Source: Diadema setosum
Lineage: Eukaryota; Echinodermata; Echinoidea; Diadematoida; Diadematidae
Direction: 5' to 3'
DNA length: 64,000 bases
Assembly: GCF_964275005.1 (NCBI RefSeq)
Contig: NC_092688.1
Coordinates: forward strand, 19,996,403-20,060,402
In this document: in pieces, positions 25,661-53,305 of the stretch
How positions within the stretch are numbered: the stretch's first letter is position 1
How the letters are laid out: every line of letters begins with the position of its first letter
Program-made: the position numbers and the translations under genes
Notes under the pieces: generated by a model
What the model saw: the letters and a program-made list of their open reading frames with translations, nothing else
What the model was told of the DNA's origin: nothing
Databases searched by the model: none

Positions 25661-28600
25661 CTGCAGGGCACACCACACACACAGACAGGTTGACAGACAG
25701 ACAGACCGACAGACATAGGTAGGAAGGCAGATACAGTGTATATAGGCAGCCAGACAGACAGGCAGACACAGAGGCAGACAGGCAGACAGACATAGGCAGG
25801 AAAGTAGATATACATGCAGACAGACAGACATGCAGACAGGCACACACATAGACATATGACAGAGACAGAAAAAAGACAAGCCAAACAAACAGACAGAAAC
25901 AGAGTTATGCGTAATGACTGCAAAAGCTATACACACAAACATGTGACAGACCTAATGTTGCTGGAGACTGCTATTGAGGGCAAACTGCTTGGGTGCCTCA
26001 ATAGCACTTGCTCCTGTACTGCATCCAAAATATTAAATTTTGTATAACTTACAATAAAGTACACGATACCTTACAATAAGCTCTCTCCTGGCAATACTGA
26101 GCACATTTACACAGTACAAAATGTGTGTAAACTCTGATGATGATGCCCCCCCTTTTTTTTACATTCATGGATCTGTTTGATATTCTTATCCTTGATACAT
26201 AATGATCGCCATTCCCATCCCTGACAGACACATAATGTTTACAGCATTTACACTACTACAGAACATATTCCACAAAAAAGACTCGAGTAGCAATGAAGTC
26301 CATTGAATCAATGGTACAAAGTGTTATGCTATACTAGTAGTATAAAGAACACACAATATTTGTTGATATGCTTTACTTGGGTTCAAGCCAAAGATGGCTG
26401 ATGCAGAAAAAAACACACACACTCTTAACCCTAACTAGGCCGGGCTATTTAGGTAGATCATAGAGGGGGGGGGGCCTCCCAGGCCCCCCTCCAGATCTCG
26501 GCCATCGACCGCACGATTGCGACGAAAATTGGCACACACATTGCCTATGACGTAATCTAAAGTACCACGAAGTTAAATTTAAAAAAAATGATCATTTATG
26601 CAAAATTATGCTAATTTATGCATAATGATGCATGGAATCAGACAATTTGGTATAAATCACTAAATAAAGCTCAAAATGGGCACATTTTTTGTGTTAACAT
26701 TCTTTTTAGTGTCCTGAGCAAATATAAGAGAAAAAAATTGTGCCATCACAAAAAATTTCTCAAGTATTTTATTGTTTTTTGAATTTTTTATGTATTTCAT
26801 TGTTTTTTTTCTTTATGTTTTTCATTGTTTTTTCGATGAAACTTGTCCGCGACATTGTTCCGAACAAGAAAATATGTTATCAATTGATTTTAATCAATAA
26901 AACCCCAAAATAATTATGCTTTTATGAAATTTGCCTGTGAGCACAGTTTGCATTGAAATTGTACACGAATTCACGTTTTTGAGCAATTTTGGTCTGACAG
27001 GCATGTACATATTTATGCGCAACTTCAGAACCGCGCGCCCGGGCATCGCAAATCGCAAAAGAAAAAAGTCATATAACGTCGCGGCGATAGCTTTTCGCGT
27101 TAGCGATACATCGTGCGGAACGTCGAGGGGGGGGGCCTCGGAGGCCCCCCCCCCCCGGCCTAGTTAGGGTTAAATGCATAATATCTTATTTTCGTACACG
27201 ATAGTGCCATCCCGCTATTTACTATCGGGCAATGCCATAATAAACACCAAAGTTTCCAGCAGTATATTTTCTAAGTTTGTCCCAGCCATTGAGAAAAAAA
27301 GGTCTTTGTGATACTTACCGCTGACTTCTGCTTGCTCTCTTCCTCCAGCTTTGTTTCTAGGCTCATCACTTTCTCCTGCCAAACCGACTGGTTGGCTCGC
27401 AGACACTTGTTCATCTATTCAAACACACAGTGGGATAGACAATAAAAATCATTACAATAGTGTTTTCTAACATTCAAATGGCAGCAAGAAAGTAGAGCTT
27501 CAAACTTGGTTTGTACAGAAGACTGGCAGTGTATTTTTGCACATATGGATGGGGGTTCTGGACACAACTAGCATCATTTGAGTTGAAAATGAAGGTCTGT
27601 TATGTTAACATGCACATATGGCGAATTGATGGTGATTACATAACATCTTCATTACTGGTAACTTCTTTCCACTTGAGGTGGTAAATACTGATTCAATACA
27701 GACAAAATCCTGGTGTAAAAGGCCTATGATTGCATCACATAACCAGTGCCACATAAGAGAGTCTGGCCAACTCGGTGCAATTGGTCCATAGCTGGTCTCG
27801 TGACCTATGTGGAGCCATGTCGTTGGCGAAGAGAGCACATACTCATCAGTGCCCATTCTGAACGAAGCTCTACTTTATTAGCTCACTTTGATTATGACGT
27901 CTGAGCATACACACTAACCCTCTAATGCGTAATACCCCAAGCAACAACATGGCATCCAATTCAGCAGTTGGCTAGAGTCTCTTTACATGATATGACAAAG
28001 CACATAACATCAACACACTGGCCTGGCCGCAACTTACCTCCAGCTCTTCAGACAGCTGCCCCAGCACCTTGCCAAGCTTTTCCGACAGGAAGGCCGCCTT
28101 CTTCTCGGCCACTTGCTTCTCCTTGTTTGTCTTCTGGAGCTCTCTCTCCATCCGGTCTCTCTCTTCCATCATCTTCCTAGACCGCACCTCCACGTCGGAT
28201 ACCTATGGGCAGAGAGTGCCACAAGTCATTGGGTTGCATCATGGATGTTCATGATAAGATCCCAGAGTGATAGTCATACACCTATCTATCAGTACTTCTG
28301 CATTGCAAAACAGATTTACACATTATGGTGCCAATCAAACAGGCACTGGGCAGAGATGCCAACATTGTAAAAAGCAGTGTATTTTTAGTGGAAAAACAGT
28401 ATTTTCACCTTTCATGCAAAAGATGTGTATAGTACATGTACTATTTTGGAAAATGTCACCAGGGTATTTCCAATGAACACTACAGTATTTTAGGCAAAAA
28501 AAATAAAAAATAAAAAATACTGGAAAAAAATTGCAGGTTGAGAATGACAGTGTGGGGCCACCAGAGGGACAAGGGCATTATAAATTATAAAAACTGTTGT

Positions 28601-34600: not shown

Positions 34601-37600
34601 GATCAGTAAGGTACTTTCAGAGAATTTTCAGTTCAAACTTTATTTTGAAAAATCCAGTTTTTCTCTGGTCCCATACGTAAGTTGGCATATTTTTCTTAAT
34701 AAAATAATCAACCCAAGGTCAAATGACACCAAACTTAAACACAATATTCTTCTCAAGGATACCAGTCCTCCTGATGATAAACAATAAAATCCAAGTGCTC
34801 CTTCATTACTTTTCAGAGGTTTGAAATCTCTGAATGTCCCATACGTAAGGTGCGCGATATCTTGGACTTGCCCTACACCAGAATAATATCTCTTCACAGT
34901 CATAATTTGCAACAAAAAATGCCAAGAATTTGCTACAACACAAAAGGTAAATAACAAATACACACACAAAACATAAAAAATGAAACAATGAATTATAAGA
35001 TATCAATAACATCAATATGTAGATGGTAAAAAATACCAAACTTGGGACACAGTCAGAATATGTGTAAAATAGGATTGTCTCTGATTTTTTTCTTTTCTTT
35101 TTGGGGTGGGGTGGGCTATTGACAGGATATGTGTGAAATAGGATTGTCTCTGATTCTTTTTTTTTTTTGGGGGGGGGGGGATGGGGTGAGCTAATGACAG
35201 GATATGTGTGACATAAGAATAAGCTAATGACAGGAAGGGTTGGTGTAGGACAAGACTAGGTTGTATGCTTGCTTTATCTCACTAACCTCTTGGGCACCAC
35301 ACTGAAAACACTTGTTGTCAACTGAAGGCTCTGGGGTTTGGTTATATCTACAGACTGGGCAGCTGCAACAAAGAAAGTCCAGGAATTGAGATGCAAATAG
35401 GAAGAGAAATAAAAACAAATTGACTAATAGACATTCATATGAATTTGGACAATGAAGCAGTCACAGGAGTGTGACATCGAAGTAATGACAACTACAAAAT
35501 GTAAATTTGCATATATAACGACATGCAAAAAGATACATCGACACATGTACCAAACTGCCTGCTTAAAGTACCATCACATTATAGAATAAAAACATACAAA
35601 CTTTAACTTTGTTTTTTCTCATGGGCATGTTCTAGCCTCTTTTCTATTTCTTTGTTTCAGAAATGTTGTTGGGCCACACATACACTTTCACACATCTTGC
35701 TCAGGAATTGTGACTTTTTTTTTGTTTTTGTATTATTTGTCTATTTTCTGTTTTGTTGTGGTTGTTGCTGTTATTGTTATTGTTGTTGGATTTTGTTTTT
35801 GCTTTGTTTTGTTCAATCCTGACCCAGCCCTCCAATGTTAGCCCACTATCATGTTGTGTAGTCTTCCCATGACACCCATCCCTCACCTTGTGTCTCCCCA
35901 TTTGGTCAGGCAGCTGCCATGGAAAGTATGATTGCACAGAATGGTCAGGATGCCCTCCACAGAGTCCTCCATGCGCTCCAGACAGATATTACACGTTGGC
36001 AGCTCGGTGAGGCCTGGTGTGGCAAGACTAGCACCCTGTAGTGTGGGGAGCAAAACGCCACACACAATCGATCCTTCTGGTTAGTACCAGTGATGCACAA
36101 ATTAATAAAAATGACACTAATATCTTACTTTCACATTGTTGCCTTATCGATGTAACTAAATTTTTCTTTTTTCAATTTTCATCTTTTTACATTTTCAAAG
36201 TGACTAGTTCTATACAATAGTCAATAGGACATGTAAATCTCATATACACTGCCTGAATTACAATATTTACATAAAGACTGTTCAAAAAGATATACAGTTT
36301 GCTATGATTTTGGCAGTTAATCACCATCAAAACTACACACAAATAGTTCAACCATTTTCCCTTCAGTTTGAATGCCCTATTTTTTCAAGGGTAGCTAGGA
36401 ATTTACATTTTGCATGTGCATAGAAACAGGCAAGCATTCTCGTTTGTGCACAATGGCCTGAATTCTCAAAGGTGGAATAACTTTATTACACTGCTTATTC
36501 CGCCGATTTAACCCTATTAAGCCCAAGCTATTTTGACCCCTCGCAGGCCCAAGGGGGGGCACATTGTGCCCCCCCCCCATATAACTTTTTTATTATTTGA
36601 TGTATCATCGTCATATTTGGCACGTGGATAGAGTAACTCATACTCTACATGATCGTACATTTGAATTTTCACAAGGTCACCCATGGAGGGTGCTATTTAC
36701 AAAAACAAGTAGGAAATATGCTAAAAACATGATTTTTCGGTATAATTTCTTTATCCCCATTATATATGTCTTATCATAGACCAATTATTTTCATATTTGT
36801 CACAAATGATAAGCACGTGGAATTTTGTTATTTGTTATGTTTGAAATTTCCCAAGGTCACCACATGGGGGCGCTATTCATATCAACATAGTGATACATTA
36901 TGAGACCTGAGATGAAATGTTTGGGATGGGTACATGTATAGTTATGACATTTCATATTTGCATAATAGTGGAATTTTGAGATTGCAAATTGAAATATGAT
37001 AAACTAATGATATTAGAGGCATAACTTGGGTGAAGGAATCAAAATAAATCCAAATATAAGGGCAATCTGTAGAAAATAGTATTGTTTTCAATTATCTCTA
37101 GATTATATATATTGTTTTATGCATTTATCACATAAAAACAAAGGAAATAATAAGAAAAACTTTCCAGGACCATGATTACTTCAAATTTTGCTTCTTCAAC
37201 AAATTTCAGCCAAGAAACACCCATTTCATACACTGTAATGCTGTTAAATGAAATGGGAACAGAAAAAATATGCAAAATCTGACTGACATGGTTGTCAGTT
37301 TATGGTTGCCATGGCAACCAGCAACATCAAATACACCTAAATTATATATCAAAATGTTCGCAATAAGATTTTAGGAAAAGTCACCAAATTTGGTTGAAAT
37401 CGGATTAAGGACAAAGGAGTGGCAAATGAAAATCTGGTAGGGGGGCACAATGTGCCCCCCTTGGGCTTTATAGGGTTAATACGCCTCTTATGCAAATCAG
37501 GCCCTAGTGACGTAAAATGACGCGATTCATTCCCCGGAATCTATTCTCAAAGGTGGAATAACTTATTCCGCGGAATAGTTATTCCAGCTTTGAGAATTCG

Positions 37601-40600
37601 GGCCAATGAGTGCACTGGGATTCATACAAATGACAGAGTTCAGAGAAAGGGGTAGAAGCAGTACTCACTTCACATGACTTCATGCATTCTACTCTAGAGA
37701 CATACACCAAGTAGCAGATGAAGTCATCAAATGAGTTGTAAGGTTTGCCATTGTATTCCTTGTAGAATTCATCTGCATGGCTCTGGAAATGAAAAGAAAA
37801 TATATTGATCATGCATTACACATACAATGTAAATTAATTTTGTATTTCAGTTTGTGTTTATTTTTCCCCGGTTAGTGCTTATAAGTACTTAAAAGACAAA
37901 ATCATTTTAAGGACATCAAATACTCTACATCTTTTCAGTTCTTTTTCAATTCATTTTCATTTCTCTTAAAGGACAAGTTCACCTTCATAAACATAAGGAT
38001 TGAGAGAATGTAGCAATATTAGCAGAACACATCATTGAAAGTTTGAGGAAAATCGGACAATCCGTTCAAAAGTTATGAATTTTTGAAGTTTTAATGCAGT
38101 AACCACTGGATGAGAAGACTACTGCATTGTATGAATAACTTAGATGTCACATGCGTACAACAATATAAGGAAAATACAAAGAGAATTTCACAAAATTTCA
38201 TCTTTTGAAAAAAAGTACACATTCCCTTGACTCGTTACCGACATATGTTAGGGGTAATATCATTCCCCCTGCCTTTAGAAAGAGGCAAGTCAAGTGCTCT
38301 TTTATTATGCGAAAAAAGTGAAAATATGTTGGATTTTCTTTACATTTTCTTTATACTGTTGTACGCATATGACTCACAAGCTGTAGTAGTCTCCTCATCC
38401 AGCGGTTCCAACACAAAAATTTTAAAAATTCATAACTTTTGCATCGATTGTCCAATTTTCCTCAAACTTTCACTGATGTGTTCTACTAATATTGCTGCAT
38501 TCTCTCAATCCTTATGTTTATGAAGGTGAACTTGTCCTTTAAAGTAAACAATACTGTAAAAGAGGATATTTTTGTATGACTAATTTTTCGTGATCAGCTG
38601 GGTAAGAAGGGTTTCGCATGTTTTCAATTCCGCGGAATAAAGACATCATCTACTGGAACATCATGGCAAGCAAAAGTATTCGCCTGCTTTTATTTTCGCG
38701 CTAGTTTCTGGTTGCGCAGAATACGCGAAAATTTCAACATCGCGAAAATGTCCACTTTTACAGTATAATAATCGTATGGCAACACAATCTACATAAGGGT
38801 ATTTAATAGTGAGTGGTACGGTACAATCACTGCTTACAAAAGAAAGTCTCATAATTTGCTTTATGATTTGCCTCGAGAATCCCCTAAACGGAACAGAAAC
38901 TCACTTGATTTCTGAACTTGATGAGGGTCATGTACTGGTTTGGGTTGGAGTCCCGAATGATGCGGACATGCTCAATGCCCTCGGCCAGGGGAGCAAAGAA
39001 CTGAAGAAGGTCATGGCAGATGAGGGACGCGGGGACAGCCAGAGCACAGATCATGTCACTCCGATGGATGCCCTCATCCAGAGAGGTCATTTGACTGCAA
39101 ATAAAGACTTTTAGTGATAATCATCCACATACACCTACATAGTTTACCGCGCATAATGCAAGCAGTTTGTGCTTAAAGGGATGATATAGTATTGGTTCAG
39201 ATGAGGATTGAGCTTTTGACTTTTTGCAAGATACTTATATGAAATGTTACGGAGCATACAATTCTAAGAGGAATTCATAATTTTTGAGGAAAATCAGTTT
39301 TGAAATTGCCGAGATATATATATAAAAAAAAGTAAAACAAAGCAATCCTAATAAAAGATGGGTCCCACTGTTTATTAGGATCCCTGATAGTTGTTTTGGA
39401 TATCTCAGCCATTTCAAAACCGATTTTCATCAAATAAACTTTGAATTACTCTTAGAATTACATGCTTCTTCATATTTCAAAAGAGGTTTCTCATTTTCTC
39501 TCTCAAAAAAGTTGGATACCTGAAGCCCCATCTCAACCACAACTATACTATCCCTTTAACAAGAGTATATAGTAGCAGAGTAAAAAAAAAATAAATAAAT
39601 AAAAAATCTTCTGTGAAGTGAACACAGAAGTACAAAAATCATATCACATCAAGTGCAAAAATTGCATTGTACTCAATGAATCAATTCATTGGCACAATGA
39701 AATATCAGATGCTTGTGGCCCCTGCCCTGCAATGAGCTCATTTTACCTGCTTATTTTCGTACAATGCACATTGCATATTACAAAGATATTATCATATTAG
39801 GCAAGTCTCATAAAAACAGCAGACAATTTTGGTAATTTCCTTGATAATACTTTTCAGGAACAAAAAGCATGGAAGTACAATGTGTTATTTCTGGTAAATA
39901 CTGAACTGATAAAAAACAACACTTCACGTCAAAATCCTGGAAGTTTCCATTTGAAATGAGTTGCGTGTCTAACATCCACATGTAAACATTTCCATAAACA
40001 TCACTTTGCTGCAAAGTATTCATATACACTTTTGATTAAAGGACAAGTTCATCTTCATAAACATAAGGATTGAGAGAATGCAGCAATATTAGTAGAACAC
40101 ATCAGTGAAAGTTTGAGGAAAATTGGACAATCGATGCAAAAGTTATGAATTTTAAAAATTTTTATGTTGGAACTGCTGGATGAGGAGACTACTACAGCTT
40201 GTGATATCATATGCATACAACAGTACAAAGAGAATGTAAAGAAAATTCAACTATTTTCACTTTTTTCGAATAATAAAAGAGCACTTGACTTGCCTTTCTA
40301 AAGGCATGAGCAGGGGAATAATATTACCCATAACATATGTCGGTAACGAGTCAAGGGAATGTGTATTTTTTTCAAAAGATGAAATTTTGTGAAATTCTCT
40401 TTATACACTGTATTTTCCTATATTGTTGTATGCATGTCACATCATGCACTGCAGTACATAGTCTTCTCATCCAGCGGTCACAGCACAAAAACTTCAAAAA
40501 TTCATAACTTTTGAACGGATTGTCCGATTTTCCTCAAACTTTCAATGATGTGTTCTACTAATATTGCTACATTCTCTCAATCCTTATGTTTATGAAGGTG

Positions 40601-42615
40601 AACCTGTCCTTTAATTGGAAGTGACTCCTGTAATTGATGATGAAATCTTGCCTATATCTGTTTTTGTGCAACAAAAATTTAACCAAGACGTATGTTTGGT
40701 ACATTATCAAGCTACATAGTTAACTATGACATACACAAGCATGTATAGGTTTTATCCCACTATTTGTTTAAAAAACTAACAATAACTAAAAGCACTTTCA
40801 AAGTACACTATCTTCACTTGTGGGTGTACAGATCATGAAGTGTTACATTAAACAAATTATCATTTAGCATTACAGTGAACAAATATCATTCACCATTACA
40901 GTGAATGAATAATCGTGTTAACAAAAAAAAAAAAAAAAAATCACGCTGAGTGAACAGATCATATTTTCTGGTGGGAAAATGTCTGAAATGGCACAAACGT
41001 TGCAAAAGAGTCAACATGAAACAAACTATTTTCCTCCAAAAGTACTCACTTTTCCTTGAAGAGATGTACGATGCCTTTTGTGATATCCACCACAGGATTT
41101 CCAGAAAAGAATGGGATTCTTCTCCTAAATGAAGCAAGCGGACTCTTACTTGACCTGCCTCCCTCGCTTGTATCCGATGACACTGTAGGAGGACTAGCAC
41201 CAGAGGAGCCCCGCCTCTCTCTGCCCACACTCGAAGACGCCAAACTCCTCTGCTCCTTCAGGGAAGAGCTGCGCCTCACTTCAGCTTTCTTCCCCTTGTG
41301 GAATTTGCCCTCCGCCTGCTCGCCCCTGCTCTTGTCCGAGGTCAACGAATCTTCGTCCGTCAAGTCCGGGGAGGTGATTTCGCTGATGGAGTCACTATTT
41401 GTGTCCTTACTGACGTCCCCTGCAGGGGGCGTAACGCTCACCCCAGCAGACTGGTGGCTGGACTTCTCAGATCCCGTGGGTCTGTCCTTCGGCTTGGTGT
41501 TCGAGACAACACTGGCATAGTTGGCTTTCGCCTCTGTGCTCTGACTTGTAACCTCATCCTCATACCGCTCTGGGGGGAAAAAAAGGCCACAGGAAGATAA
41601 CTTTTCTGCAGAAAGTGTGAAAGGTGAGTTTGTCCAACACTGCGTAGTAATGATTAATTGAGACAAATCTTCTTTTCCAGGAAGTTATATGTTATTGATT
41701 TTTGTAACCTTGATTTGAACATAATTTGTTCCTTTCTCAAAGTTTGACTGGGTTTCACATAAATTAACCATACCTGTAAGGTTTTGTATCACTTTACCCG
41801 GAGAATTTTTCCCAGGTGCATAACTTTTCTCTTTAACAGCCTTGACTGTAAAATACAGAAAAGATAATGGTTGCAATGTCATCACAATCAATGGCCCTAT
41901 TTTCTAGCAATCCATCCAGATTAACAATTGGACAGCTTAATGAATTATTTAAGCTATTTTCTAACTTTGAATCATTACAACTTGAAAAGAGCTAGCGGCA
42001 TCTTTAGAAAAAATACAATGTGGTACCCTACTAAGTTAAAGAAAACAATAAACAAAACTGACACAAGATATTTACTATATCTTCATTTGAAGATATTAAT
42101 TGGGAGATTTGAATACAAGTGAATTATCTTTCATAGGTATTTACCTTCCACAGAATATGTCTCTATCCTGATGCCCTTTTCTTCCCTATTTCCAACACAC
42201 TTCTCCACTACCGTCTCCAAGCTATCCTCTCTGGCTCCAACTGGGTGGCTGCGCCCGTCCTCCACCCGTTCCCAGGCAACCTGCGGCATGTGCTTGAGGG
42301 CATCCTGGCGTGGCTTGGCCATCAGGGCCGGAGGGGGACTGGATGTTAGGAGTGGGGGGCTCTCTGCCATGTTGGGTGATCTGGCTGCAGTGGGGCACAA
42401 ATTATAAGCAAATTTTCATGGATGTTGTATAATGCACAAAGACTATCACTTCTGACATTATCAATACAATTGCATTTAGTCACAGCTAAACTTTGTGTAG
42501 TACAATGTAAAATGACATACGACATGTAGAAGACATTTATATCACAAGTATGACACAACATCAACATTTTCAAAGCAAAAAACAAAAAACAAGAACTCTC
42601 ACCATGGTTCGACAT
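25481..42615 (-). CDS. BRAP: BRAP / IMP, RING-type E3 ubiquitin ligase, 14 coding exons
   Basis: BRAP is a cytoplasmic RING E3 ligase that restrains KSR-dependent Raf/MEK/ERK signalling until Ras binds it, and holds nuclear-localisation signals in the cytoplasm. Exons, 5' to 3' on the minus strand, are 42615-42603, 42384-42145, 41845-41774, 41569-41050, 39094-38905, 37782-37669, 36035-35887, 35362-35287, 31879-31741, 31134-31022, 29054-28965, 28202-28038, 27414-27319 and 25660-25481. All phases agree and give 718 residues. The BRAP2 domain runs about 258-380 ([36 protein letters not shown]). RING-H2 uses C398, C401, C417, H419, H422, C425, C434 and C437. ZnF-UBP spans about 451-510 ([25 protein letters not shown]). 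The coiled coil runs about 530-690, with a basic tail [12 protein letters not shown]. The 250-residue N-terminal part is Ser/Pro-rich and lacks the VSLVVIRLEL start of vertebrate BRAP, so the first exons are the weakest part. Confidence 0.93.
25670..25910. repeat. (CAGA)n-type degenerate microsatellite
   Basis: CAGACAGACAGG-like tetramers fill the last BRAP intron next to the terminal-exon acceptor. On the minus strand they read as a Cys/Leu/Ser/Val-rich frame that is not a protein. Confidence 0.85.
26425..27173. mobile_element. TTAACCC element A with GGCCTC-core end hairpins
   Basis: The termini are a 20-bp perfect inverted repeat, TTAACCCTAACTAGGCCGGG. Just inside each end is a G-run/palindrome/C-run: GGGGCCTCCCAGGCCCC at about 26469 on the left and GGGGCCTCGGAGGCCCC at about 27132 on the right. 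The interior is AT-rich and non-coding. It is homologous to element C (GGCACAC, TTGGTCTGACAGGCATGTA). It lies in the last BRAP intron. Confidence 0.8.
27319..27414 (-). CDS. BRAP: BRAP exon, coiled coil 3
   Basis: Thirty-two whole codons: [20 protein letters not shown] through [15 protein letters not shown] is identical in human BRAP. Confidence 0.94.
28038..28202 (-). CDS. BRAP: BRAP exon, coiled coil 2
   Basis: Fifty-five whole codons of charged heptads ([39 protein letters not shown]). The clean acceptor gcccatag and donor gtaagt support it. Confidence 0.9.
28350..28500 (+). repeat. Word island starting GCAGAGATGCCAAC
   Basis: After the opening phrase come AGCAGTGTATTTTTAG, AACAGTATTTTCACC and TACAGTATTTTAGGC, that is, repeats around CAGTATTTT. 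It lies in a BRAP intron. Confidence 0.4.
28965..29054 (-). CDS. BRAP: BRAP exon, coiled coil 1
   Basis: Thirty whole codons: [20 protein letters not shown] and [10 protein letters not shown]. LLxSQLESQR is nearly invariant in BRAP. Confidence 0.94.
29613..29895. repeat. Tandem duplication, two 140-bp units
   Basis: The block starting ATTCTAGTAAAAGCTGATTA at 29613 is repeated at 29753 almost unchanged, including a C-run and A-run. The near-identity points to a recent duplication in a BRAP intron. Confidence 0.88.
31022..31134 (-). CDS. BRAP: BRAP exon after ZnF-UBP
   Basis: Encodes [20 protein letters not shown] through [14 protein letters not shown], matching the human NYVHRLVASKTDGK segment and leading into the coiled coil. 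Confidence 0.95.
31741..31879 (-). CDS. BRAP: BRAP exon, ZnF-UBP core
   Basis: Encodes [20 protein letters not shown], then [17 protein letters not shown] and VWDYAG. The acceptor cactttttag directly joins QE to SLWIC, matching human QENLWICLICGHIG. This finger can bind ubiquitin C-termini in the family. Confidence 0.96.
31930..32111 (-). mobile_element. Probable LINE 3' end with (GAAT)n tail
   Basis: On the minus strand, TTTTCCATTTTATGGACAAT leads into AAAATGAATGAATGAATGAATGAAT, the usual look of a non-LTR element tail with a short tandem repeat. The element at 32112-34874 begins immediately beside it. Confidence 0.4.
32112..34874. mobile_element. 2.76-kb non-coding DNA transposon with repeated CTTACGTATGGGAC words
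   Basis: The ends are a 17-bp inverted repeat: AGGGCAAGTCCAAGATA at 32112 and its complement ending at 34874. The word CTTACGTATGGGAC or its complement starts at about 32292, 32459 (inverted), 32626, 32646, 34450, 34473, 34669 and 34836. Those in the left part mostly point one way and those in the right part the other. No ORF of note is present, so the element is non-autonomous. The superfamily is unknown; clustered subterminal words are known transposase-binding sites in several superfamilies. It lies in a BRAP intron. Confidence 0.75.
35287..35362 (-). CDS. BRAP: BRAP exon, RING end and start of ZnF-UBP
   Basis: Encodes [20 protein letters not shown] then CGAQE. It completes the RING finger and provides the first cysteine pair of the UBP zinc finger. 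Confidence 0.95.
35887..36035 (-). CDS. BRAP: BRAP exon, RING-H2 finger
   Basis: Encodes [20 protein letters not shown] and [14 protein letters not shown], holding six of the eight zinc ligands. The last pair (CPVC) is in the next exon. Confidence 0.96.
36455..37604. mobile_element. GGCCTGAATTCTCAAAG MITE split by element B
   Basis: The left piece (36455-36507) reads GGCCTGAATTCTCAAAGGTG and the right piece ends CTTTGAGAATTCGGGCC at 37604. AAT on both outer sides may be a 3-bp target duplication. The interior pairs through TTATTCCGCGGAATA. Element B occupies 36508-37479. Confidence 0.7.
36508..37479. mobile_element. TTAACCC element B with CACATTGTG-core end hairpins
   Basis: Ends TTAACCCTATTAAGCCCAAG and its near-complement CTTTATAGGGTTAA. 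The left hairpin GGGGGGCACATTGTGCCCCC lies at about 36554. The right one, at about 37440, reads GGGGGGCACAATGTGCCCCC, the exact reverse complement of the left. The interior is AT-rich and contains CATATTTGGCACGTGG, recalling elements A and C. It is inserted into another MITE in a BRAP intron. Confidence 0.8.
37669..37782 (-). CDS. BRAP: BRAP exon, end of BRAP2 domain
   Basis: Thirty-eight whole codons: [20 protein letters not shown] to [11 protein letters not shown]. It matches the ADSFY...CNGRQFNS...LVYV segment of the human protein. Confidence 0.94.
37966..38542. mobile_element. TTAA foldback MITE, TTAAAGGACAAGTTCACC family, copy 1
   Basis: The two ends are nearly perfect inverted repeats for about 48 bases, and the halves pair over most of their length. 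A second copy lies at 40036. Both are in BRAP introns. Confidence 0.85.
38905..39094 (-). CDS. BRAP: BRAP exon, BRAP2 domain core
   Basis: Encodes [20 protein letters not shown] and continues to [18 protein letters not shown]. The BRAP2 domain has an RRM-like fold, and this part is near-identical in spacing to human BRAP. Confidence 0.95.
39173..39559. mobile_element. TTAA foldback MITE, TTAAAGGGATG family
   Basis: Begins TTAAAGGGATGATATAGTAT and ends ATACTATCCCTTTAA. The central hairpin is around AAAGATGGGTCCCACTGTTT. It is the same family as 21011, 56863 and 62381. Confidence 0.85.
40036..40614. mobile_element. TTAA foldback MITE, TTAAAGGACAAGTTCA family, copy 2
   Basis: Close relative of 37966-38542 with the same termini and interior, 1.5 kb away in the next BRAP intron. 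Confidence 0.85.
41050..41569 (-). CDS. BRAP: BRAP exon, Ser-rich region and start of BRAP2 domain
   Basis: Encodes a Ser/Lys/Glu-rich, probably disordered stretch, then [20 protein letters not shown] and HLFKE. The latter corresponds to ISFFSGNPSVEIVHGIMHLY of human BRAP. The antisense strand is open over the same region but is a shadow. Confidence 0.9.
41774..41845 (-). CDS. BRAP: BRAP short exon
   Basis: Encodes [20 protein letters not shown] and QNLT. The acceptor gtattttacag and donor gtatgg give phases matching both neighbours, which supports it despite the short length. Confidence 0.6.
42145..42384 (-). CDS. BRAP: BRAP exon, N-terminal linker
   Basis: Encodes residues 6-84, including [20 protein letters not shown] and [19 protein letters not shown]. 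The acceptor cccactgcag and donor gtaaat fit the phases of both neighbours. No domain is recognised. Confidence 0.65.
42603..42615 (-). CDS. BRAP: BRAP putative first coding exon
   Basis: CACAAGATGTCGAACCATG is followed by a gtgaga donor. The ATG has A at -3, and MSNH plus one base joins the next exon in phase. An in-frame upstream ATG at 42646-42648 would add eleven residues. A splice acceptor (ttctaacag) lies further upstream. The start is tentative. Confidence 0.4.
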
Positions 42616-43340: not shown

Positions 43341-43449
43341 CAGAAGGTGCTTGCTGGGGTTGGATTCTCTGCCCAATCCAGCCTCCCCGCATGCTGCAAA
43401 TACACACAGTCATCTGATAATAACGATGTCTCTCAGTCTCATTCATACT

Positions 43450-43605: not shown

Positions 43606-43836
43606 ATTCATACTGAATAATATCACAGTGCAGAATTCTCTGCAACGATCTTCACTCGACTATCGGATTGAAGAAAACAGATTCGATTTATAGAATGCGG
43701 ATTGCAAATGAAAAATGAAAATGAACAAGTGGAGGGAAAGAAAAGGACGACGAAAATTTCTTGGTAAACATGGATGGTAAAAGAATTACAATGAATATTC
43801 AACAAGAATTTCGAGATGGGATCGAAGCTCACTCAC

Positions 43837-43900
43837 ATCTTGAATACAACAACGATGTCGGCAATTCAGATTCGTTGTTGATAGACAGACGAATCACACA
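43837..43900 (-). other. Possible BRAP 5' untranslated exon (donor only)
   Basis: On the minus strand GTATTCAAGAT is followed by gtgagtgag, a strong donor without an open frame. It could end a non-coding BRAP first exon spliced to the acceptor near 42660. This is inference only. Confidence 0.25.
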
Positions 43901-44938
43901 CAAAGAAACAGACATTAGGACGCTAAGCTGACGGCAATTGCCAATGCTACGTCTTAAGTTCCAACGAAGTCGTTTCTGAAAGTAATGGGGATTGCTGATA
44001 GCGGGGCGAAAGATCTTGAAGTTTAAAGATGTAATACTTCGACGTCCAACATCATCGCATTGTCACCTTCCTCCACAGGATCCCTCAGCTTGCGCTTGTT
44101 GTTTTGATTGTGAGAGCTCGCTGCTGCTACACCCGTCACGTACGTACAGACGCTTCATTGATCCCTGCATAATAAAAGCACAGTCGTGAATTGCGTAGTA
44201 ATACTTCCGGGTTATGGCGCAAGAGCGTACGCGTACGCGTATGGGTCGTCGACACCAGCCATGCGGACTCCATACGAGAAAACAGAACAAGTATAAAAAC
44301 CTTATTTACACCATTTTGCGGCATTCTCTTTCATGTATATTCCGTATTAGGTAAATTCAAGTATAATCCTCTTCATCAACGTAATTACTCCCGGAAAGCA
44401 AGTCAAACTGTTTGCCATATGACTGGAGGAAGGTGATACTCCTGAATGGTAGCAGACGACGTGAGACAGTATGAGGAATGTATAAACCACATGGATCCAA
44501 GCCAGGGTCGGGCGCAGGATAGTTTGCAGGCACAAACCCTTGTTGGTCGTTAGGAGTCTGCATGCGCCAAGACTAATACACGCACCACTACACTGCAGCC
44601 TCTCCCAACAAGTTGGGAGAAGCTTCAACACAGGGCCTATGGGACAGTGCCAAAGTGGTGCATGTAGTAGTCTTGGCGCAGACTCCTTTACGACCAACAA
44701 GGGTTTGTGCCTGCAAACTAGGCTGTGATGTGCAGTCGTGCATGCGGCGTGTGATGCAACCAGTGGATGCAACCCATGTACACAATCTCAGTTTGGTTGT
44801 GTACGGGTCATCGGAAGCCGCATGAACCGCATCGGCACCTGGCTTCCCACGCCACGGGCACGGCATCTGACTGGGAGCTTGAACGAGATCTTCGCGGTTT
44901 CAACGACATTCTGACTAATATTGTTGTCTAGAACCACG
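43900..44938. promoter_or_regulatory. Possible divergent BRAP/QPRT promoter region
   Basis: The two genes are transcribed away from each other, and this spacer is richer in CG than its surroundings (for example GTACGCGTACGCG at 44227). No TATA box or defined start site could be placed. Confidence 0.35.
44520..44720. repeat. Inverted repeat with 70-bp arms upstream of QPRT
   Basis: The left arm TAGTTTGCAGGCACAAACCC through CCAAGACTA is repeated in reverse at 44655-44720 with few mismatches. The centre holds a second perfect palindrome, CTCCCAACAAGTTGGGAG. It resembles a foldback MITE; no target duplication was recognised. It ends 218 bases before the QPRT start codon. Confidence 0.75.
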
Positions 44939-45490
44939 ATGGCAGCAGGGCAAACTCTGGAGTGTCTGCTATCGCCAGCAGCGATCTCGGATCTTGTTCA
45001 ATCATGGCTTCGAGAGGACATTCCGAGTTTTGATTACGGGGGATATGTGGTCGGCGAGAAGGAAGAGACAGCGGTTCTCCTCTGCAAGTCTCCCGGGGTT
45101 CTGGCGGGCGTGCCGTTCTTCAACGCCGTATTTCGCGAATTGGGCTGCGAGGTTGAATGGTGCAAAGCAGAAGGCACCTTCTTAAATCCAGTATGTGAAG
45201 TGGCTACAGTTAAAGGTAGAGCCCGAACTATTCTCATGGGCGAAAGATCTGCCCTGAACTGCCTGGCACGGGCAAGCGGAGTGGCAACTGCAGCTTCGAG
45301 GCTCACAGGTATAGCCAAGGAATCGGCATGGACTGGACAAGTCGCGGGAACGAGGAAGACAACACCGGGCTTTAGGATTGTGGAGAAGTACTCCCTGTTG
45401 GTGGGCGGGGCTGCCACCCATAGATACGACCTGTCATCCATGATAATGCTGAAAGATAATCACATTTGGTCTGCAGGAAGCATTACACAG
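44939..45490 (+). CDS. QPRT: QPRT exon 1
   Basis: Encodes residues 1-184 from [16 protein letters not shown] to [13 protein letters not shown], including most of the quinolinate and PRPP site. It ends in phase 0 before gtgaga. Confidence 0.95.
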
Positions 45491-48400
45491 GTGAGATGCT
45501 GTGGGAGCTGATTTATACACTCCAAGTTCAAGGAGATGAGTTTTTGATGGGATCATCATAAAAAAGGTGTATTTTAGTGATGTGTTTATCATTTAGATAT
45601 AATCCCTTATCAAATTCAGTTCTTCCTCCTCTGTCATTCTCTGCTCTAACACGTTAATAGTACCACTGATGTTTGTGTTTATGATTTCTTTATTAATTTT
45701 CATCTCTTTCTTTCTCCTCAGCAGTCAGGTTCCATACCCCAAGACACTGCCAAGGAGAAATACTATGCTTATTTATTGCACTTAAGTCTTAACAATCTAT
45801 TTTAGATTTAATTGTGTCTAATTTACCCTGAAAAAAGACAAATTAATGTAAAGCCATATTTCATGAAAATTCATAGAGAATTTAACTATACACCAAAATG
45901 TTTTCCTTATTAAATGTCTTGTTCTAATGTTTCAATACTTATTAGAATTTTGTTCGCTCACCCTACCCATCCAATTCCCAGGCTTTCAAGTGTTCCTACT
46001 TTTCCTACTTTTTCCTACTTTTTTACTGCTGTTCCTACTTTTCCTACTTTTTTGCTCAAAATCCTACTTTTTCCTACTTTTTCCTACTTTTTGGGTGAAA
46101 AGCCCCGCAAAAAAAAAAAAAAAAAAAAAAAAACGTGCAAGGCTACTTGAATAGTTTACATTCAGAAATGATGAGTAGACTCTAGTTGCAGATGCTTACT
46201 GGTGGCAAGAGCCTCAGTCTGTCTTCAACATGAAAGAGGGATAACACAAACCAATCAACCACAAGACTGCTGCCAGCCTCAGCTTTTGCTCCTGTGTAGA
46301 TGTGATTGATCCCACTGATATTGCAACCTAGGACTTGGAGCAGTGCTCAACCAGCTCTCATCATCGTTCAAAATTACCAGGTAAGCTTCCCATATACTTA
46401 AAAGTAGAATTTGACATGTGACTTCCAAAGAATACAACTGAGAGAAAATGCCACCTACAGCCAGTTTTAATGGATGTAGAGTTCAAGCATATCATGTCTC
46501 ATGCATGTGCTGGCATGCAAATCCTCAGAAACCAGAAATTTTCTTTGCTAAAATATGATTTACCACATCAGTCGTAAAGGTCATGTTAAAACAAGAAAAT
46601 ACACCTCCAGATCCCCTTTGCGTGAAATCCTTCAATAATATACTTGTATGTTTTGATAATAATTAACAATGATTGCAATATGACAAACTTAATAGGAAAG
46701 TAAGTTTTTCACCACAGAAACTAGATCTGGTTGATGTGAGGATGAGTAATGCCCAAGAAAGCATAGATCGGTAGGGACCCATTTGAATGAAACTTGCATA
46801 TTACTGAAGCTAAATCAAAAGCACTCCGGTTACATCAGTTTGATCTTTTGGTAAGAGTTCAAGAAAAGAAAATATAAGTTGCCAAATCTGTCAAAAGAAA
46901 AAACTTTGAAGACTTATGAGGTTTAACATGAGACATATGACTTGTGATATCCATTTGAATCATGGGCATGTGGTAGATACGACTACTAGAAATCTTCCTT
47001 AATTCATCTGAAGTTAAACAGCTGAGGAAGGTTAGTCGCTGAGAAATCAGATGAACAAGAAGAAATGTTTAATTAACAGATCCCACATATTGTTAACAAG
47101 GAGTGAGAACAACAGTGATTACTTAGCGATCTTGAAAGATAAAGACTAATAGGAGAGCAGAAACCTCTTTATGAACAATCTTAAAAGTTGATGGCTTGTT
47201 ACATCTTACAAGGATTGTTTAAGATGTTGAATTGTATCGTAGGTGAGACATACATTACCTCGAAGAACTTAAAGAAGAAAGTAGGAAATGGAGGAACTTC
47301 ATGGAAAACAAACACAAAAACAATATTTCAGTATTGTTTAAAGATTGATTGAAGTTGAAACCATGGGACGTTGAGGTCCACTTCCTGGAGACACTTAGAC
47401 AGAACTATCAGAAATATATATAGAGAAAAGCCATCTAAAGCATACAGGTGTACCTGAAAGAACCCAAACAATCAGGAAAGATAATGAATGTATATTCCAC
47501 AAATAAGATCAAGTGTGTGAATGTTTTAAATTGAACTGCCAAGATCAGTTTGTTAAGTTTGGAGGAACCAACTTGCAGAAAAATTAGAAGCCATGATGTC
47601 TTTTTATTCCACAGATCTTGCAAATTTTAGTTAAGGCTGAACATCTTTTTACTACCCAGCTAGTTTGAACAAGATGCGAAAAAATGGTAGAACAGAAATC
47701 CCCTATAAGTGGTTAAAATGTGATGGATCATTTGAAGTGACATACCCAAAATATTGAACCATTTGAAAGAGTCTTGGTAAAATGTTAGACAGGAAAACTT
47801 CTTAAAGAAGACAAAAATGGATGGATGTGTATGCCAATTTTTTTGTGTCAACTTACAAAACTGTAAGTTGAAGGTGAAAAGCAAAAGAATAGTGGAGAGT
47901 ATCAAAATTGAAAGGGCACAAATACACTGTATTTAAGGGGGGGGGGAGGTGAGAAATGCATGTAAATTTACAGATCATCTAACAGTGTATTTGCTATCAA
48001 ATGGCCAAAAAAGTTTGTTAATTGGAATTTGCTGAGAAATCAGAGAAGCTAGCAAGGACTTACATGATAATGACAGTCACTGTTTATTCCCCAGATTTTG
48101 CAAAGAGTAGTTTATAAAATTGACAAGCTGAAATACTGAGCCACCAAAATATCTGGAGAATGAAAAGCAGAATCTAAACCTTGTAAAATTTCAAAGGATA
48201 TAATATTCTCAAAATTTTATGAAGAAGTTTGATTTCAAGAATATTGAATGAGCTTAAAAGTGTCTGGAATGATATTGCAAAATGGAGAAACTTCCTGAAA
48301 AGATCAAATAGCTGTATGTGTATTCCACAAAAAGGGTCATGATGAGCTGAAAAGAAGTTGAATGTAAAGAATTATTAACTATCTGCAGTGAATTTGGCAA

Positions 48401-51400
48401 AGATTGCAAACAGTAGACAGTCATTGCAAAGTACAGAATGATAAGTTTCTACCATTCTTTCTAAATTAACAAATGTAAGTTCATTCAAGAATAAATAAAA
48501 TGTAGCATCTACAGAACACCAAAGAAATGAAATCTGATTTATTTGTTATCCACAGAAAAAAAAAATAGAGTCATTTTTGCTACCTATAAATTCGGTAAGA
48601 CTACAGACAATAAGAAACAAAAAGCAGATGTACATACATGCTCCTCACATATTGTAAAGTGGAGTCATTTGGTTATATTAGTCTTCTGTTACTCTACATG
48701 TGACAATACTACAAGTTTGTACATTGCCCTGATTGATACTGAAATGTAAAGTATTTGCTTTTCTCTCTCTCTCTCTCTTTGGATGTTTTGTGTTCTATTT
48801 GTTAAAGTGTTTCAAATTGAGCTTGCCTTATGTTTCCATCTATATCATATGATTATACCAAGATAATCTATATTATTGGAAATTCAGTGGTGGACAATGT
48901 GCCATAAAGTCACAGTATTTGAGTGTGTAGATTTGTAGTGGGCCAGGATTTGCAAAATAAAGATGTTAATATAATGCATTGTTAGATATAACTTCACTTC
49001 GTAAGGCCTCACTGTCATGGGGAAAACCCATTCCTCATGCATGTCTTGCCAGAAATGTAATATGATAACACATGCTCTCAGAGACTAATACTGACAGCTA
49101 CTTATAAGAAGTTAAAATTATCCTGTTATTTTAAAATGTTTGAACACATGTTATTTGCTTACATGTATTTGAAATTGAAGGTCTCTTGAAAAGTTAGTAT
49201 TTTGCTTATCTCATGGTCATTTAGCTGGAACTTGAAAGCATACTAATCTTGTCTTAAGCATCATTTGAATAGCTTTGTCAAACATCCTTATTTCCAGTCT
49301 TCTTCACACTTTGAAGTGAGACATATCTTCACAACTTCAAATGAGTGTAGATAAAAGTATCATCTTTTTTAATTGCTTTTGTCAAATATCCTTATTTCCA
49401 ATCTTTTTTCACATTTTGAAGTGAAACACATATCTTCACAACTTCAAAACATTCAAATGAATGTAGATAAAAGATGTCATCTTTTAAGTATGGAAGTGTA
49501 TAACATACCTTTGGCATTAATGTATAACTTACACATCATGGAATGTTAAATGACATATTTTGTGGGATGATATGTGACCGTGCTTCACAAAATCAACAAT
49601 AAGTCGCACACACTGATTTTGTGTTAGGACTAAAAATAGGTGATATGGGCCAACCCAACCAATCTTGAGTTTTTCATAGTTTCTGGAAGAGCAAGTCTTC
49701 TATATTATACTGAAGTTTGGGATCATAAAAAGAAAGGGAAATTGTGTTTTTAGCAATTTTTTTCTGGAACACTTTTGGGTAGAATAGTGTGATTAGGTGT
49801 TTCTCATAGAGTCCTCTTTTCATTTCTTAAAAACTCTGTCCATACTCTTAACTTTCAACTCCAACAACTTTAGAAAGGATGATGATACTGCTTTGAAAAT
49901 TGGCATTGATCATCTACAGAATATATTAATAAAGCATGCACAGCTTAATCAGATAATCTCTTCATTGTTGTTGCTCCAGTGGTTAACATCCTGTTATTTG
50001 TTCCATTCATTGCAGAGCTAGCACGGCTTGATAAAGATTAAGCACTTGAAAAAACGCCATACTTCAGAGCCCCTTTTCTCAGTTCACATTTTCCAGAGTG
50101 TGTGCTTTCATTCCGATATTAGGAGAGGTTAGGAGAATCCATTTGAATCGAGTTATACATCATTTTAAAGCTTAAAGTTTGCTCCTTCAGAATCTGCTCT
50201 TAACTAAAAATCCATGTCTGGCGACTTTTTGTCGGTGTTGTGATGCAGGGTCACATACTATTGTATATGGAAGGTGTTCATGTCAATCACAGAATGATGT
50301 CTTTCCTATGCAAGTATTGCAGTAAGTTATCAAGATTTATATCGCCTGTTCTGTTGAACATGCATTTGTGTTTGTTTCCTGACATTGTTCTAATGAATGT
50401 CTGCCTTTGTTGTATTTTTCAGGCTCTCCCAGGAGCAAAAGTGAGGCTGAGGCAGCAGGGTTGTGAGTACAAATTAAGATGTATTTGTAACATCAAGAGT
50501 TCTGGTGAGTATCGACAAAAACTACTCCAAAAAGCCTGCACATATCCTGATTTATTCCTACTTTTTTTTCTAATGTCCTACTTTTCCCCTCTCATGTCCT
50601 ACTTTTTCCTACTTTTTCAGAGATTCTGTTCCTACTTTATTCCTACTTTTTTACATTATCCCGCTTGAAAGCCTGTCATACCCTTCTTTGAATATGAAAT
50701 TCAAGTAAAATACCTCTGATCAGGATCGAGATCAAATCTTCAAGTTCATTTATTTTGTTAATGGCCACAAAGGCATTTATTTGCATCATAGAAAGAATCA
50801 TTCCTTTGGAAATTTTTAACACTTTATCATTTTGCAGTACCATGGGTAATAAATTTGCAAGTCAAATTATAACTTATCATGAGAAACTTAGCATGATGGG
50901 CCAATTGAGGTCAGATTTTGTCATGACAGTGTATAATGCAGGCATACTCATAATTCTTAACCCGTTGGGGATGGGCTAATTTTGCTACAACACGCATTTC
51001 CCATAGACCCCTGCCCAAGTATACTCGGGACTCATCCTCAATGGGTTAAAGGTCCTGTTTACCTTTGGGAGCAGTGAATAAAATTTTGTTCAAGATATCG
51101 CATTTGATGTATGTGTAGGTCTGTTGTATCACACAACATCCTACCATATAAAATTTTCGCAATAAAGCCTAAAATATAGGAGACATCAGTATTTTTCTCA
51201 ATAAACCATAACTGTAGATGGTTTAGTCTGGAAATATTTTTTATCTTTAAACTATTGTTCACATGTTATGTATTTAACAACACTTGACATCGATTACACT
51301 GTATATGGATTCAAATCTTAATTTACAGTGGTTGTTTCTATCCCTAACACAATTTTAGAACTGTTTAATAAGGGGTTTTTTGTTTCATCTGCAAATGGTA

Positions 51401-53305
51401 AAGTATGCCTTTAATAAACCAATATTGCTTTCTGTAAAGTCACATTAACTGGAGGAATTTTTTATTGAAAGAAACCTGTCGATAAGTTTGAGATGTTATT
51501 TGTTATCTAGTTTCGTGCCATGTGGCCTACCAAAAATTAAGCACTCTGATCTCACAGCAAAAGATTTAACCCTAACCAGGCCGGGCTTTTTTGGGTGTTC
51601 TGTGGCCGGGGAGGGGTTGATTCAACCCCCCCCCCGAGATCTCGGCTGTCGATCGTGCAATCGCCATGAAATTTGGCACGTGCATTACCTGTGCCGTAAT
51701 CTACCAAGCTATACAAAAAGAAATGGAAATTTTCGTCATAATGATTAATTATGCTAATATATGCATAAAATCATACATTTTGCTCTAAATCAGAAATTAA
51801 AGCTCCTAGAATCCTAATTTTTGATGAAAAAATTCTTTGTAGCATTCCTAACAATGTACATAAAAAAAAATTTGGTATCAAAATCAATTTCTTATGTATT
51901 TTATTGTTTTATGAATTTCTTATGTATTTCACTGTTTTTTCGACCTTTTGTTTTATCATTTTTTTTTCGCAAAATTTATGACAGAACCTATATCAAGCAT
52001 AATTATGCTAAAATTAAATAGTTTCAGCCTATAAAAGTGAAAATAATCATATCTTTATGAATAAGAAGAGAAAACTCCATTTGCATAGACTTTATACACA
52101 AAATCACGTTTTTGAGCCATTTTCGGTCTGACAGGCATGTATAAAACGTTATGCAGCGTCGTAACGGTATGCACGATTTTCGCGAAAATGGTGTCAAAAG
52201 ATGTGCGAGACTTGAAAGTAAAAAGTCAGCGAACGGCGCGGAGTAGTGGTGAAAAATGTCGAGGGGGGGGTTGATTCAACCCCCCCCCCCCCCCGGCCTT
52301 TTTAGGGTTAATGTATACCAAGGATGAAAGTTTGTGCATGGATGGTGGGAGAAGCTATAATATTGCATTATTTGTGTGACCAACTCTCTGCCTACCAGGC
52401 AGTGAAGAATGCCAGACAGACCGGAGGATTCTCAATCAAGATTGAGGTGGAATGCCGGAGTCTGGAGGAGGCCCGCAAGGCGGCATCGGCCGGAGCAGAG
52501 ATCATCATGTTGGACAATTTTACACCAGAGGTAAGATTTCCTCCAATCAGTGATGACTGGTAACATAATGTGCAACTTGAGCAGGATTTGACACAAGTCT
52601 ATTTAGATAGCAGTCAACCCGCAGAATATGTGAGGGAAAATGTAGTTGCAGGCATGAGTTTTGAGAAAATATTGAACCACAGAATGTCACCACCCCCCCC
52701 CCCCCCCATCAACACTACCACCAAAATGATGATAATAATAATGATAATGATACAAGCAAAATGCATCACAAATCAAGCTGAGATTTCCTAACAATACATA
52801 AAAAAAATGTACAATTACACCAGAGAATTTAGAGCATCATGTATCATGGTACAATATGAAATTGATGGACGATTAGTCATGGAATTAGGAAGACGTTATT
52901 GTTCATGATCATTATGGCCAATTATGGTAAGTGCATGAGTTCTGTCGTCTGTTTTTTGTTTTGTTTTTTGTTTTTGTTTTCATGAACAGGGCTAACAAAC
53001 TTGTGAGGTAAGTAAGAATGTGAAACTCAATTACAAATTTGGTGATGTCCCCATTGTTTCTCTCCTTAATGTGATATCTGGCCCAGGCTGCCACTTCTGC
53101 TGCTGCCCAGCTAAAGGGCGAATTTCCTCACATCACTGTGGAAGCCAGTGGAGGGATAACGGAAGAGACGATACGTGACTTCATGAAACCAAACATTGAT
53201 GTCATCTCCACGAGCCGACTGACTCAGGGCTATTCTGTAGTTGATTTCTCTCTCAAGATTAAAAAGGAGGGTCATGACCCCAGCAATCCTGTTGTTCGAA
53301 GTTGA
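44939..53305 (+). CDS. QPRT: Quinolinate phosphoribosyltransferase (decarboxylating), 3 exons
   Basis: QPRT turns quinolinate and PRPP into nicotinate mononucleotide, CO2 and pyrophosphate, the step that links tryptophan breakdown to NAD synthesis. Exons 44939-45490, 52399-52530 and 53087-53305 join in phase 0 and encode 300 residues, against 297 in human. Family residues are in place: [27 protein letters not shown] (137-146), HRYDL (161-165), KDNH (172-175), KIEVE (198-202), LDNF (222-225) and EASGGIT (247-253). The human ISMGMLTQ segment reads ISTSRLTQG here, closer to the fungal form. ATG 44939 was chosen because upstream in-frame codons contain no ATG and homologues start a few residues before LLSP. 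Intron 1 is long (6.9 kb) and holds element C. Confidence 0.95.
45985..46090 (+). repeat. TTCCTACTTTT word island 1
   Basis: TTCCTACTTTT recurs about eight times after GGCTTTCAAGTG in QPRT intron 1, ending in a long A run. Confidence 0.7.
46900..48560 (+). repeat. Possible highly diverged tandem repeat, period about 115 bases
   Basis: TATTCCACA-like words at about 47491, 47605, 48088, 48319 and 48548 are spaced by multiples of roughly 115-121 bases. They are preceded by AAACTTCCTGAAAAGATCAA-like and followed by TTGCAAA-like words. Similarity between units is low, so the call is tentative. The rest of QPRT intron 1 from 46091 to 50540 shows no gene. Confidence 0.35.
50545..50660 (+). repeat. 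TTCCTACTTTT word island 2
   Basis: TCCTACTTTT recurs about eight times, ending CCCGCTTGAAAGCCTGTC. The closing phrase is the inverse of GGCTTTCAAG that opens island 1. Confidence 0.7.
50957..51049. mobile_element. 93-bp TTAA miniature element
   Basis: Begins TTAACCCGTTGGGGATGGG and ends ACTCATCCTCAATGGGTTAA, inverted repeats of about 19 bases at TTAA sites. The centre holds GGGACTC and CCCCTGCCC words. Confidence 0.7.
51566..52311. mobile_element. TTAACCC element C with TTGATTCAA-core end hairpins
   Basis: Begins TTAACCCTAACCAGGCCGGG and ends CCCCGGCCTTTTTAGGGTTAA. GGGGTTGATTCAACCCC occurs just inside both ends (about 51613 and 52267). The interior matches element A (GATCTCGGC, GGCACGTGCATT, TCGGTCTGACAGGCATGTA). 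It ends 87 bases before QPRT exon 2. Confidence 0.8.
52399..52530 (+). CDS. QPRT: QPRT exon 2
   Basis: Encodes residues 185-228: [20 protein letters not shown] and [15 protein letters not shown]. The acceptor is ctgcctaccag, 87 bases after the end of element C; the donor is gtaaga. Confidence 0.95.
52690..52708 (+). repeat. C-run
   Basis: A C homopolymer near 52690-52708 in QPRT intron 2, followed by ATGATAATA repeats. Confidence 0.6.
53087..53305 (+). CDS. QPRT: QPRT exon 3
   Basis: Encodes residues 229-300: [20 protein letters not shown], then [12 protein letters not shown] and [12 protein letters not shown], ending VVRS and TGA. The acceptor is tggcccag. Confidence 0.95.
   Translation, partial: AATSAAAQLKGEFPHITVEASGGITEETIRDFMKPNIDVISTSRLTQGYSVVDFSLKIKKEGHDPSNPVVRS

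Follow-up and report, generated by a model that had tools for sequence, protein, structure and literature searches.

Matching end palindromes in families of probable piggyBac-type elements from the sea urchin Diadema setosum

Three non-autonomous transposons, here called A, B and C, lie in a 64,000-nucleotide stretch of the Diadema setosum genome (NC_092688.1, positions 19,996,403 to 20,060,402; 'the window'). They are very probably members of the piggyBac superfamily resembling miniature inverted-repeat transposable elements (MITEs), with ends of the type found in Trichoplusia ni piggyBac and a palindrome near either tip as the predicted site of the transposase cysteine-rich domain (CRD). The core of this palindrome matches between the left and right ends of an element and is fixed within a family, and between most families it diverges further than its flanks do. 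piggyBac-type MITEs are a kind already known; it is the paired, fast-changing core that is of interest.

The ends of elements A, B and C

A, B and C are non-coding, bounded by TTAA and tipped with CCCTA on both sides (coordinates in Table 1). The first four letters of each are the TTAA target-site duplication, which lies outside the transposon proper, and axis positions are counted from the first base after it. TTAA duplication and CC[C/T]T tips are hallmarks of piggyBac (PMC2872659, cited here, like all papers below, from excerpts). The tips of A, B and C begin CCCT and satisfy this motif, and the TTAA duplication is present at both ends in these three and in a fourth element, D.

A 17-nt palindrome, GGGG-core-CCCC, is found at each of the six ends. 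Six G4-palindrome-C4 sites occur in the window and all are ends of A, B or C, against three in total in 200 dinucleotide shuffles. The cores are CCTCCCAGG on the left of A and, read from the right tip, CCTCCGAGG on the right; CACATTGTG at both ends of B; and TTGATTCAA and, again from the right tip, TTGAATCAA in C. Left and right agree in 8, 9 and 8 of the 9 nucleotides in A, B and C, respectively, and cores of different elements in 0-3 of 9. This is what the original prediction, made from the letters of the window, had claimed, and its coordinates and core sequences were correct. It was also right that A and C have homologous interiors: the two are homologous throughout, with 388 of 582 interior positions identical (66.7%) and a local alignment score of 240, where the best of 100 shuffles reached 34. 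By local alignment against shuffles, no relation of the B interior to A or C was detectable.

The two ends of an element are built differently. At the short (right) end the axis offset roughly tracks the length of the G-run, being 30, 26 and 33 bp in A, B and C for runs of 12, 6 and 15. At the long (left) end 26, 28 and 27 nt, in the same order, separate the shared tip (bp 1-16) from the 17-nt site. In B and C this spacer consists of an insertion (19 nt in B, 18 nt in C) and, after it, the tip motif once more. Of 20000 random window positions, 457 had such a palindrome at bp 23-34 and 273 at bp 49-55. Just inside the long-end site of C, at bp 65-76 (window 51634-51645), stands a second palindrome, CCGAGATCTCGG; its AGATCTCG part is present in A, in C and in the families F4 and F5 introduced below.

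The same layout is known from T. ni piggyBac. There the left end has a 19-bp palindromic internal repeat, bound by a CRD dimer, with its axis at about bp 25; bp 34-63 of the right end are almost identical to bp 7-35 of the left, which places the right-end axis at about bp 53; a 17-bp insertion and a sequence duplication are also present on the right (PMC7351741). The same end asymmetry is described in PMC10140906. T. ni piggyBac (IFP2) thus shares with A, B and C the TTAA, a short and a long end, the long-end insertion with duplication and palindromes at about bp 25 and bp 53, the axes lying at 30, 26 and 33 in A, B and C against about 25 at the short end and at 51, 53 and 52 against about 53 at the long end. 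It is autonomous, whereas A, B and C are non-coding, so that their gene-facing end cannot be told. The tip of T. ni piggyBac is likewise CCCTA; its palindrome has no G-run or C-run arms and its core is unrelated to those of A, B and C.

As the position, asymmetry and palindromy of these sites match those of the CRD-bound internal repeat of piggyBac, a recognition element is their best explanation, and the palindromes are predicted CRD sites. The original prediction had proposed a paired recognition or structural code; transposase recognition is the part of that proposal that fits best, and a role for structure alone carries little weight (see below). Its statement that no family with this layout had been described does not stand, since T. 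ni piggyBac has it and inner palindromes occur in the human elements MER75, MER85 and Looper (PMC12324416). It had overlooked the left-end spacer, the insertion and motif duplication of B and C and the layout of T. ni piggyBac.

Other piggyBac-related elements resemble A, B and C in part. Both ends of MER75, MER85 and Looper have inverted repeats in a subterminal or inner position, which a figure legend describes as palindromic, and MER75B, unlike A, B and C, has inner repeats at one end only (PMC12324416; the human elements are likened by description). The CMITE families of Acropora corals share TTAA, CC[C/T]T tips and differing terminal repeats on a conserved interior (PMC2872659); they are about 100 bp long against 746-972 bp here and are likened by description only, and the excerpted account makes no mention of paired palindromes. 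piggyBat of Myotis lucifugus, also of the piggyBac superfamily, has a CRD dimer on an imperfect palindrome by the tip motif (PMC11707139). Palindromes on one end only, unlike A, B and C, are found in piggyBat and in one D. setosum transposase locus (L075, below). In excerpts of the open-access full-text literature there was no report of families that combine a differing paired palindrome with a conserved interior.

Families, cores and transposase genes in the genome

The 912.7-Mb assembly was searched for relatives of A and C. The best 40 of 3044 candidates for A and of 3473 for C were scored and 30 loci fetched for each; the families have at least this many copies, and those studied are the ones closest to A or C. 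An intact TTAACC..GGTTAA pair is present in 58 of the 60 loci (30/30 for A, 28/30 for C). All 30 family A loci, A itself included, could be oriented (mean pairwise identity 0.954). In 27 of them the long-end core is exactly CCTCCCAGG and the short-end core exactly CCTCCGAGG; each of the remaining three deviates by one base at one end. For family C, 27 of 30 loci, again including C itself, could be oriented (mean pairwise identity 0.953); two lack an intact pair (L055, L067) and one is ambiguous (L064). The cores are exact at both ends in 24 of these 27 and one base off at one end in two, and the short-end site is lost in L065. In L066, one of the 24, the short-end core is followed by TCAACC, not CCCC.

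The length of the G-run differs widely among copies, the short-end axis ranging from bp 25 to bp 40 in family A, and a run of about 30 occurs at the long end of L089, a copy of family F5. This variation, which suggests slippage, moves the palindrome off bp 25 at the short ends of A and C and likewise shifts it at the long end of L089. One locus (L037, 189-1758) holds two family A copies head to tail with one TTAA in common.

Further families were sought in 235,247 bases of fetched loci and with whole-genome patterns. They include F4, with half-core TCAA; F5, with half-core CGGA; F7, with tip AAAAGGGCCGGG and a short-end core of CGGA; and a relative of B (L088) with half-core CACA, found by the whole-genome short-end pattern. 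Variants with a CAGA core were also matched by the whole-genome patterns. The two short-end patterns matched 162 cores beginning with C but not CC and 275 beginning with T but not TT, with 0 and 0 matches to the reversed-pattern controls. About 100 places of each were listed and the patterns limit G-run length and miss tips unlike those already seen, so that the core classes are at least those seen. The half-cores seen (CCTC, TTGA, TCAA, CGGA, CACA and CAGA) all start with a pyrimidine. Whole-genome patterns for cores starting with A gave two matches against two in the control and one against none, that one not being a clean palindrome; cores starting with G merge with the G-run and are hence invisible to the patterns.

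Left and right cores match in both copies of F4 (L004, L042), of F5 (L057 and L089, the ends of the latter read by eye) and of B (the window and L088). Neither CAGA place (L087, L090; both fetched) has an intact element pair. The agreement of left and right cores, which the original prediction had proposed to tabulate over many copies, holds in nearly all copies read of A and C and in the two copies each of F4, F5 and B, and is partial or absent in the two of F7, as described below. In the copies read from families A, B, C, F4, F5 and F7, an insertion separates tip from palindrome at the left end only.

Full-length alignment of A, C, F4, F5 and F7 gives 62-69% identity between families, and their cores differ in 9 of the 10 pairs. 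When the alignment of the first four was scored in 713 nine-column windows, the seven with the least identity fell at the two cores, with values of 0.22-0.29 against a median of 0.67 (the seventh ties with one other window after rounding). The half-cores of these four families are alike at 7 of 24 positions, for which the binomial P of 2.5e-4 at 0.66 is a guide only, as the positions are not independent and it was computed before F7 was found. Conserved around the cores are CCCTA and GGG at the tip, AGATCTCG inside the long end and TCGAC[A/G]TT inside the short end; the tip motif varies by family, being GGCCGGG in A and C, AACTGGG in F4 and GGCTGGG in F5. Because the core changes to a greater extent than its flanks between most families, descent does not fully account for the cores.

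The genome also contains piggyBac transposase genes. A search with the profile PF13843, a DDE transposase domain, gave 38 matches (all 44 candidates scored), several with long open frames, and 11 stretches around nine of these loci were examined. In the fetched stretch around one of them (L070), which has a palindrome at bp 25.0, a second element end was not found. Another (L075) has two palindromes, with axes at 24.5 and 67.5. A third (L071) has one tip, at its 3' end at 2886, where, after TTAACCCTTTGA, the motif ACCCTGCATTATT recurs at a spacing of about 30 bp, and no palindrome was found there. In the other six no palindrome was seen at bp 25, in most cases because no tip could be recognised.

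Recognition and its alternatives

A mechanism can be proposed on the model of piggyBac. At the short end the tip, motif and palindrome follow in a row, with the axis near bp 25; at the long end a further spacer and a repeat of the motif precede the palindrome (axis at about bp 53), which would make room for a second transposase dimer. The core domain of the transposase would read the tip motif and the CRD dimer the palindrome. As a single transposase would have to recognise both ends, the two palindromes of an element would have to match, and families served by transposases of different CRD specificity would have different cores while the tip and interior stay related. That one transposase reads both ends would account for the left-right match, the palindromy, the fixed distances and the retention of the left-only insertion, and it is probably why left and right match. 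Different cores would be read by different CRDs, with changes of core following changes of CRD.

The modularity that this requires exists, since two piggyBac transposases have CRDs that differ in fold and read unrelated palindromes (PMC11707139), and activity was recovered after an engineered exchange of CRDs between piggyBat and piggyBac (PMC13405395). It is possible, and is put forward tentatively, that the families record natural switching of piggyBac CRD specificity, the palindrome being a separable, rapidly diversifying address between the tip motif and a conserved interior. The address classes so far comprise at least the half-cores CCTC, TTGA, TCAA, CGGA and CACA. If this is true, related elements stop competing for the same transposase or move to different ones, a natural counterpart of the engineered exchange. 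The 437 short ends from two patterns alone, with at least five core classes, are a ready table of end palindromes. Matched to the CRDs of autonomous elements, this table could link individual CRD residues to the bases that they read, and it could also show how a family changes its address with both ends in step. Orthogonal pairs of ends and CRDs would be useful, piggyBac being widely used in genome engineering.

Several observations weigh against the account by piggyBac-type transposase recognition. In one F7 copy (L086) the left core does not match the right, and in another (L085) they match in part, the left palindrome being partly lost with one half decayed. The short ends of a further family, F6 (L033, L034), are imperfect palindromes and its long end in L034 has none. 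F5 and F7, 65-66% identical, share the core CGGA and have thus diverged without a change of core. When F7 is added, differences in G-run length disturb the alignment around the left core, and the right core is then the only one still lowest, so that the low-window statistic hinges on how G-runs are aligned. The window copy of A has lost the second motif copy, although 24 of 27 family A copies read in the right direction have AGCCGGG in that place. A palindrome at bp 25 was seen in two of the nine transposase loci, with unrelated cores, and not in the other seven; tips on both sides were found only in L075, and the others may be cut, decayed or have ends outside the stretches. The autonomous copy with the same ends that the original prediction had suggested looking for did not appear, there being no TTAACCCTA and no G-run/C-run end in the 11 stretches around the nine loci. 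Finally, piggyBat carries palindromes at one end only and its CRD fold is unrelated to that of T. ni piggyBac (PMC11707139), and the way in which ends are organised is reported not to map simply onto the CRD fold (PMC8086355).

Plain family descent would give each family an ancestral pair of ends, with cores of no special meaning. This overlaps with recognition, in which cores also descend within families, and the original prediction had named cores that follow ordinary subfamily descent as evidence against a code. Within families they do so: the cores are fixed, and F5 and F7 have one in common. Matching ends are also general in transposons with terminal inverted repeats. Between families the cores change more than their flanks, being near-random while the inner flanks and the interior stay alike, and descent leaves the placing of the palindrome at conserved piggyBac positions unexplained. 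As a full account it is therefore unlikely.

The ends could instead be kept alike by gene conversion, or by template switching as the inverted palindromes fold back on each other. The cores are palindromic and inverted, the predicted DNA hairpins of the 21-nt end sites are stable (-6.7 to -10.9 kcal/mol), and the central base, the sole asymmetric one, occurs in either orientation, being inverted in B and direct on the + strand in C and opposite in the F4 copies L004 and L042. Conversion would be expected to erase both the one-base difference between the left and right cores of family A, which is fixed, and the left-only insertion, which is still there in six families, and the persistence of both argues against it. 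In addition, most of the C copies listed keep different left and right tips (CCCTAACC and CCCTAAAA), and left-right similarity just inside the palindromes is not significant (24, 42 and 92 of 300 shuffles reach the score in A, B and C). The ongoing conversion raised by the original prediction is accordingly improbable, and we infer that selection for recognition keeps the ends alike.

The palindromes might also work by forming a cruciform or hairpin, either in replication or as a structure to be recognised, whatever the sequence of the core. The long G-run and C-run arms give the stable predicted hairpins, and hairpin formation by inner repeats has been raised for the human elements (PMC12324416). 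A purely structural role needs no match of core sequence between left and right, and structures of piggyBac complexes show the CRD dimer binding the palindrome through its major grooves and bending it (PMC7351741); this explanation is very doubtful. Kolobok-type elements, of another superfamily that duplicates TTAA and with AGG-tipped look-alikes in the window, have termini of 5'-RR and YY-3' (PMC9587614) where A, B and C start with CCC, and this identity is rejected as having next to no chance.

Element D and other features of the window

The original prediction had suggested that the 93-bp element D might be a remote relative. D is a separate piggyBac-type MITE with a single palindrome and not a close relative of A, B or C. 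Its tips, CCCG and CCCA, deviate from CC[C/T]T. In seven ends chosen by a tip pattern, D included, the best axis is 24.5 in all seven, one of them pairing at only 5 of 8 positions.

Table 1. Coordinates of the elements, their end sites and other features (window positions unless a genomic locus is given)
Feature	Position	Strand	Description
Element A	26425..27173	+	749-bp non-autonomous piggyBac-type; TTAA at both outer ends; long (asymmetric) end left
A long-end palindrome	26471..26487		GGGGCCTCCCAGGCCCC; axis bp 51; 7/8 pairs
A short-end palindrome	27132..27148		GGGGCCTCCGAGGCCCC, from right tip; axis bp 30; 8/8 pairs
Element B	36508..37479	+	972-bp non-autonomous; layout as A; second genomic copy L088
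B tip motif, copy 1	36521..36527	+	GCCCAAG; bp 10-16
B tip motif, copy 2	36547..36553	+	GCCCAAG; bp 36-42, after left-only insertion
B long-end palindrome	36556..36572		GGGGCACATTGTGCCCC; axis bp 53
B short-end palindrome	37442..37458		axis bp 26
Element C	51566..52311	+	746-bp non-autonomous; interior homologous to A
C tip motif, copy 1	51579..51585	+	GGCCGGG; bp 10-16
C tip motif, copy 2	51604..51610	+	GGCCGGG; bp 35-41
C long-end palindrome	51613..51629		GGGGTTGATTCAACCCC; axis bp 52
C short-end palindrome	52267..52283		axis bp 33
Element D	50957..51049		93-bp piggyBac-type MITE; tips CCCGTTGGGGATGGG / CCCATTGAGGATGAG; relatives at other loci
D single palindrome	51014..51029		CCCAAGTATACTCGGG; bp 17-32 from right tip; axis 24.5; 7/8 pairs
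L070	G000:C5:27340200-27343600		578-codon frame; tip CCCATCCACGTCT; palindrome CATCCCAC-AAAAAAC-GTGGGATG, axis bp 25.0
L075	G000:C1:34371000-34374600		transposase locus; element 272-3178; tips alike over 12 bp
AGG-tipped TTAA pair	754-1188		
AGG-tipped TTAA pair	39173-39559		
AGG-tipped TTAA pair	53315-53715		
AGG-tipped TTAA pair	58228-58793		
AGG-tipped TTAA pair	37966-40614		with 37966-38542 and 40036-40614

The window has no Rfam match at gathering thresholds, and no Pfam transposase match was found among the 17 frames scanned of its 53 stop-to-stop frames of at least 100 aa. In viral contigs there were no matches to the exact tip pattern or to the T. ni piggyBac repeat, and a single match to an interior 17-mer was put down to chance. 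So was one bacterial match to the tip pattern in GTDB, in which the last 200 bases are without a further element.

Several TTAA-flanked inverted-repeat pairs in the window have AGG tips (AGGACAAGTTCACC and others) and resemble Kolobok or T2-MITE elements. The longest of them, 37966-40614, looks composite, with elements of 577 bp and 579 bp at its two ends. The window also includes one or more exons of a quinolinate phosphoribosyltransferase (44915-45511) and of an ACDH-11-like acyl-CoA dehydrogenase (9771-10127).

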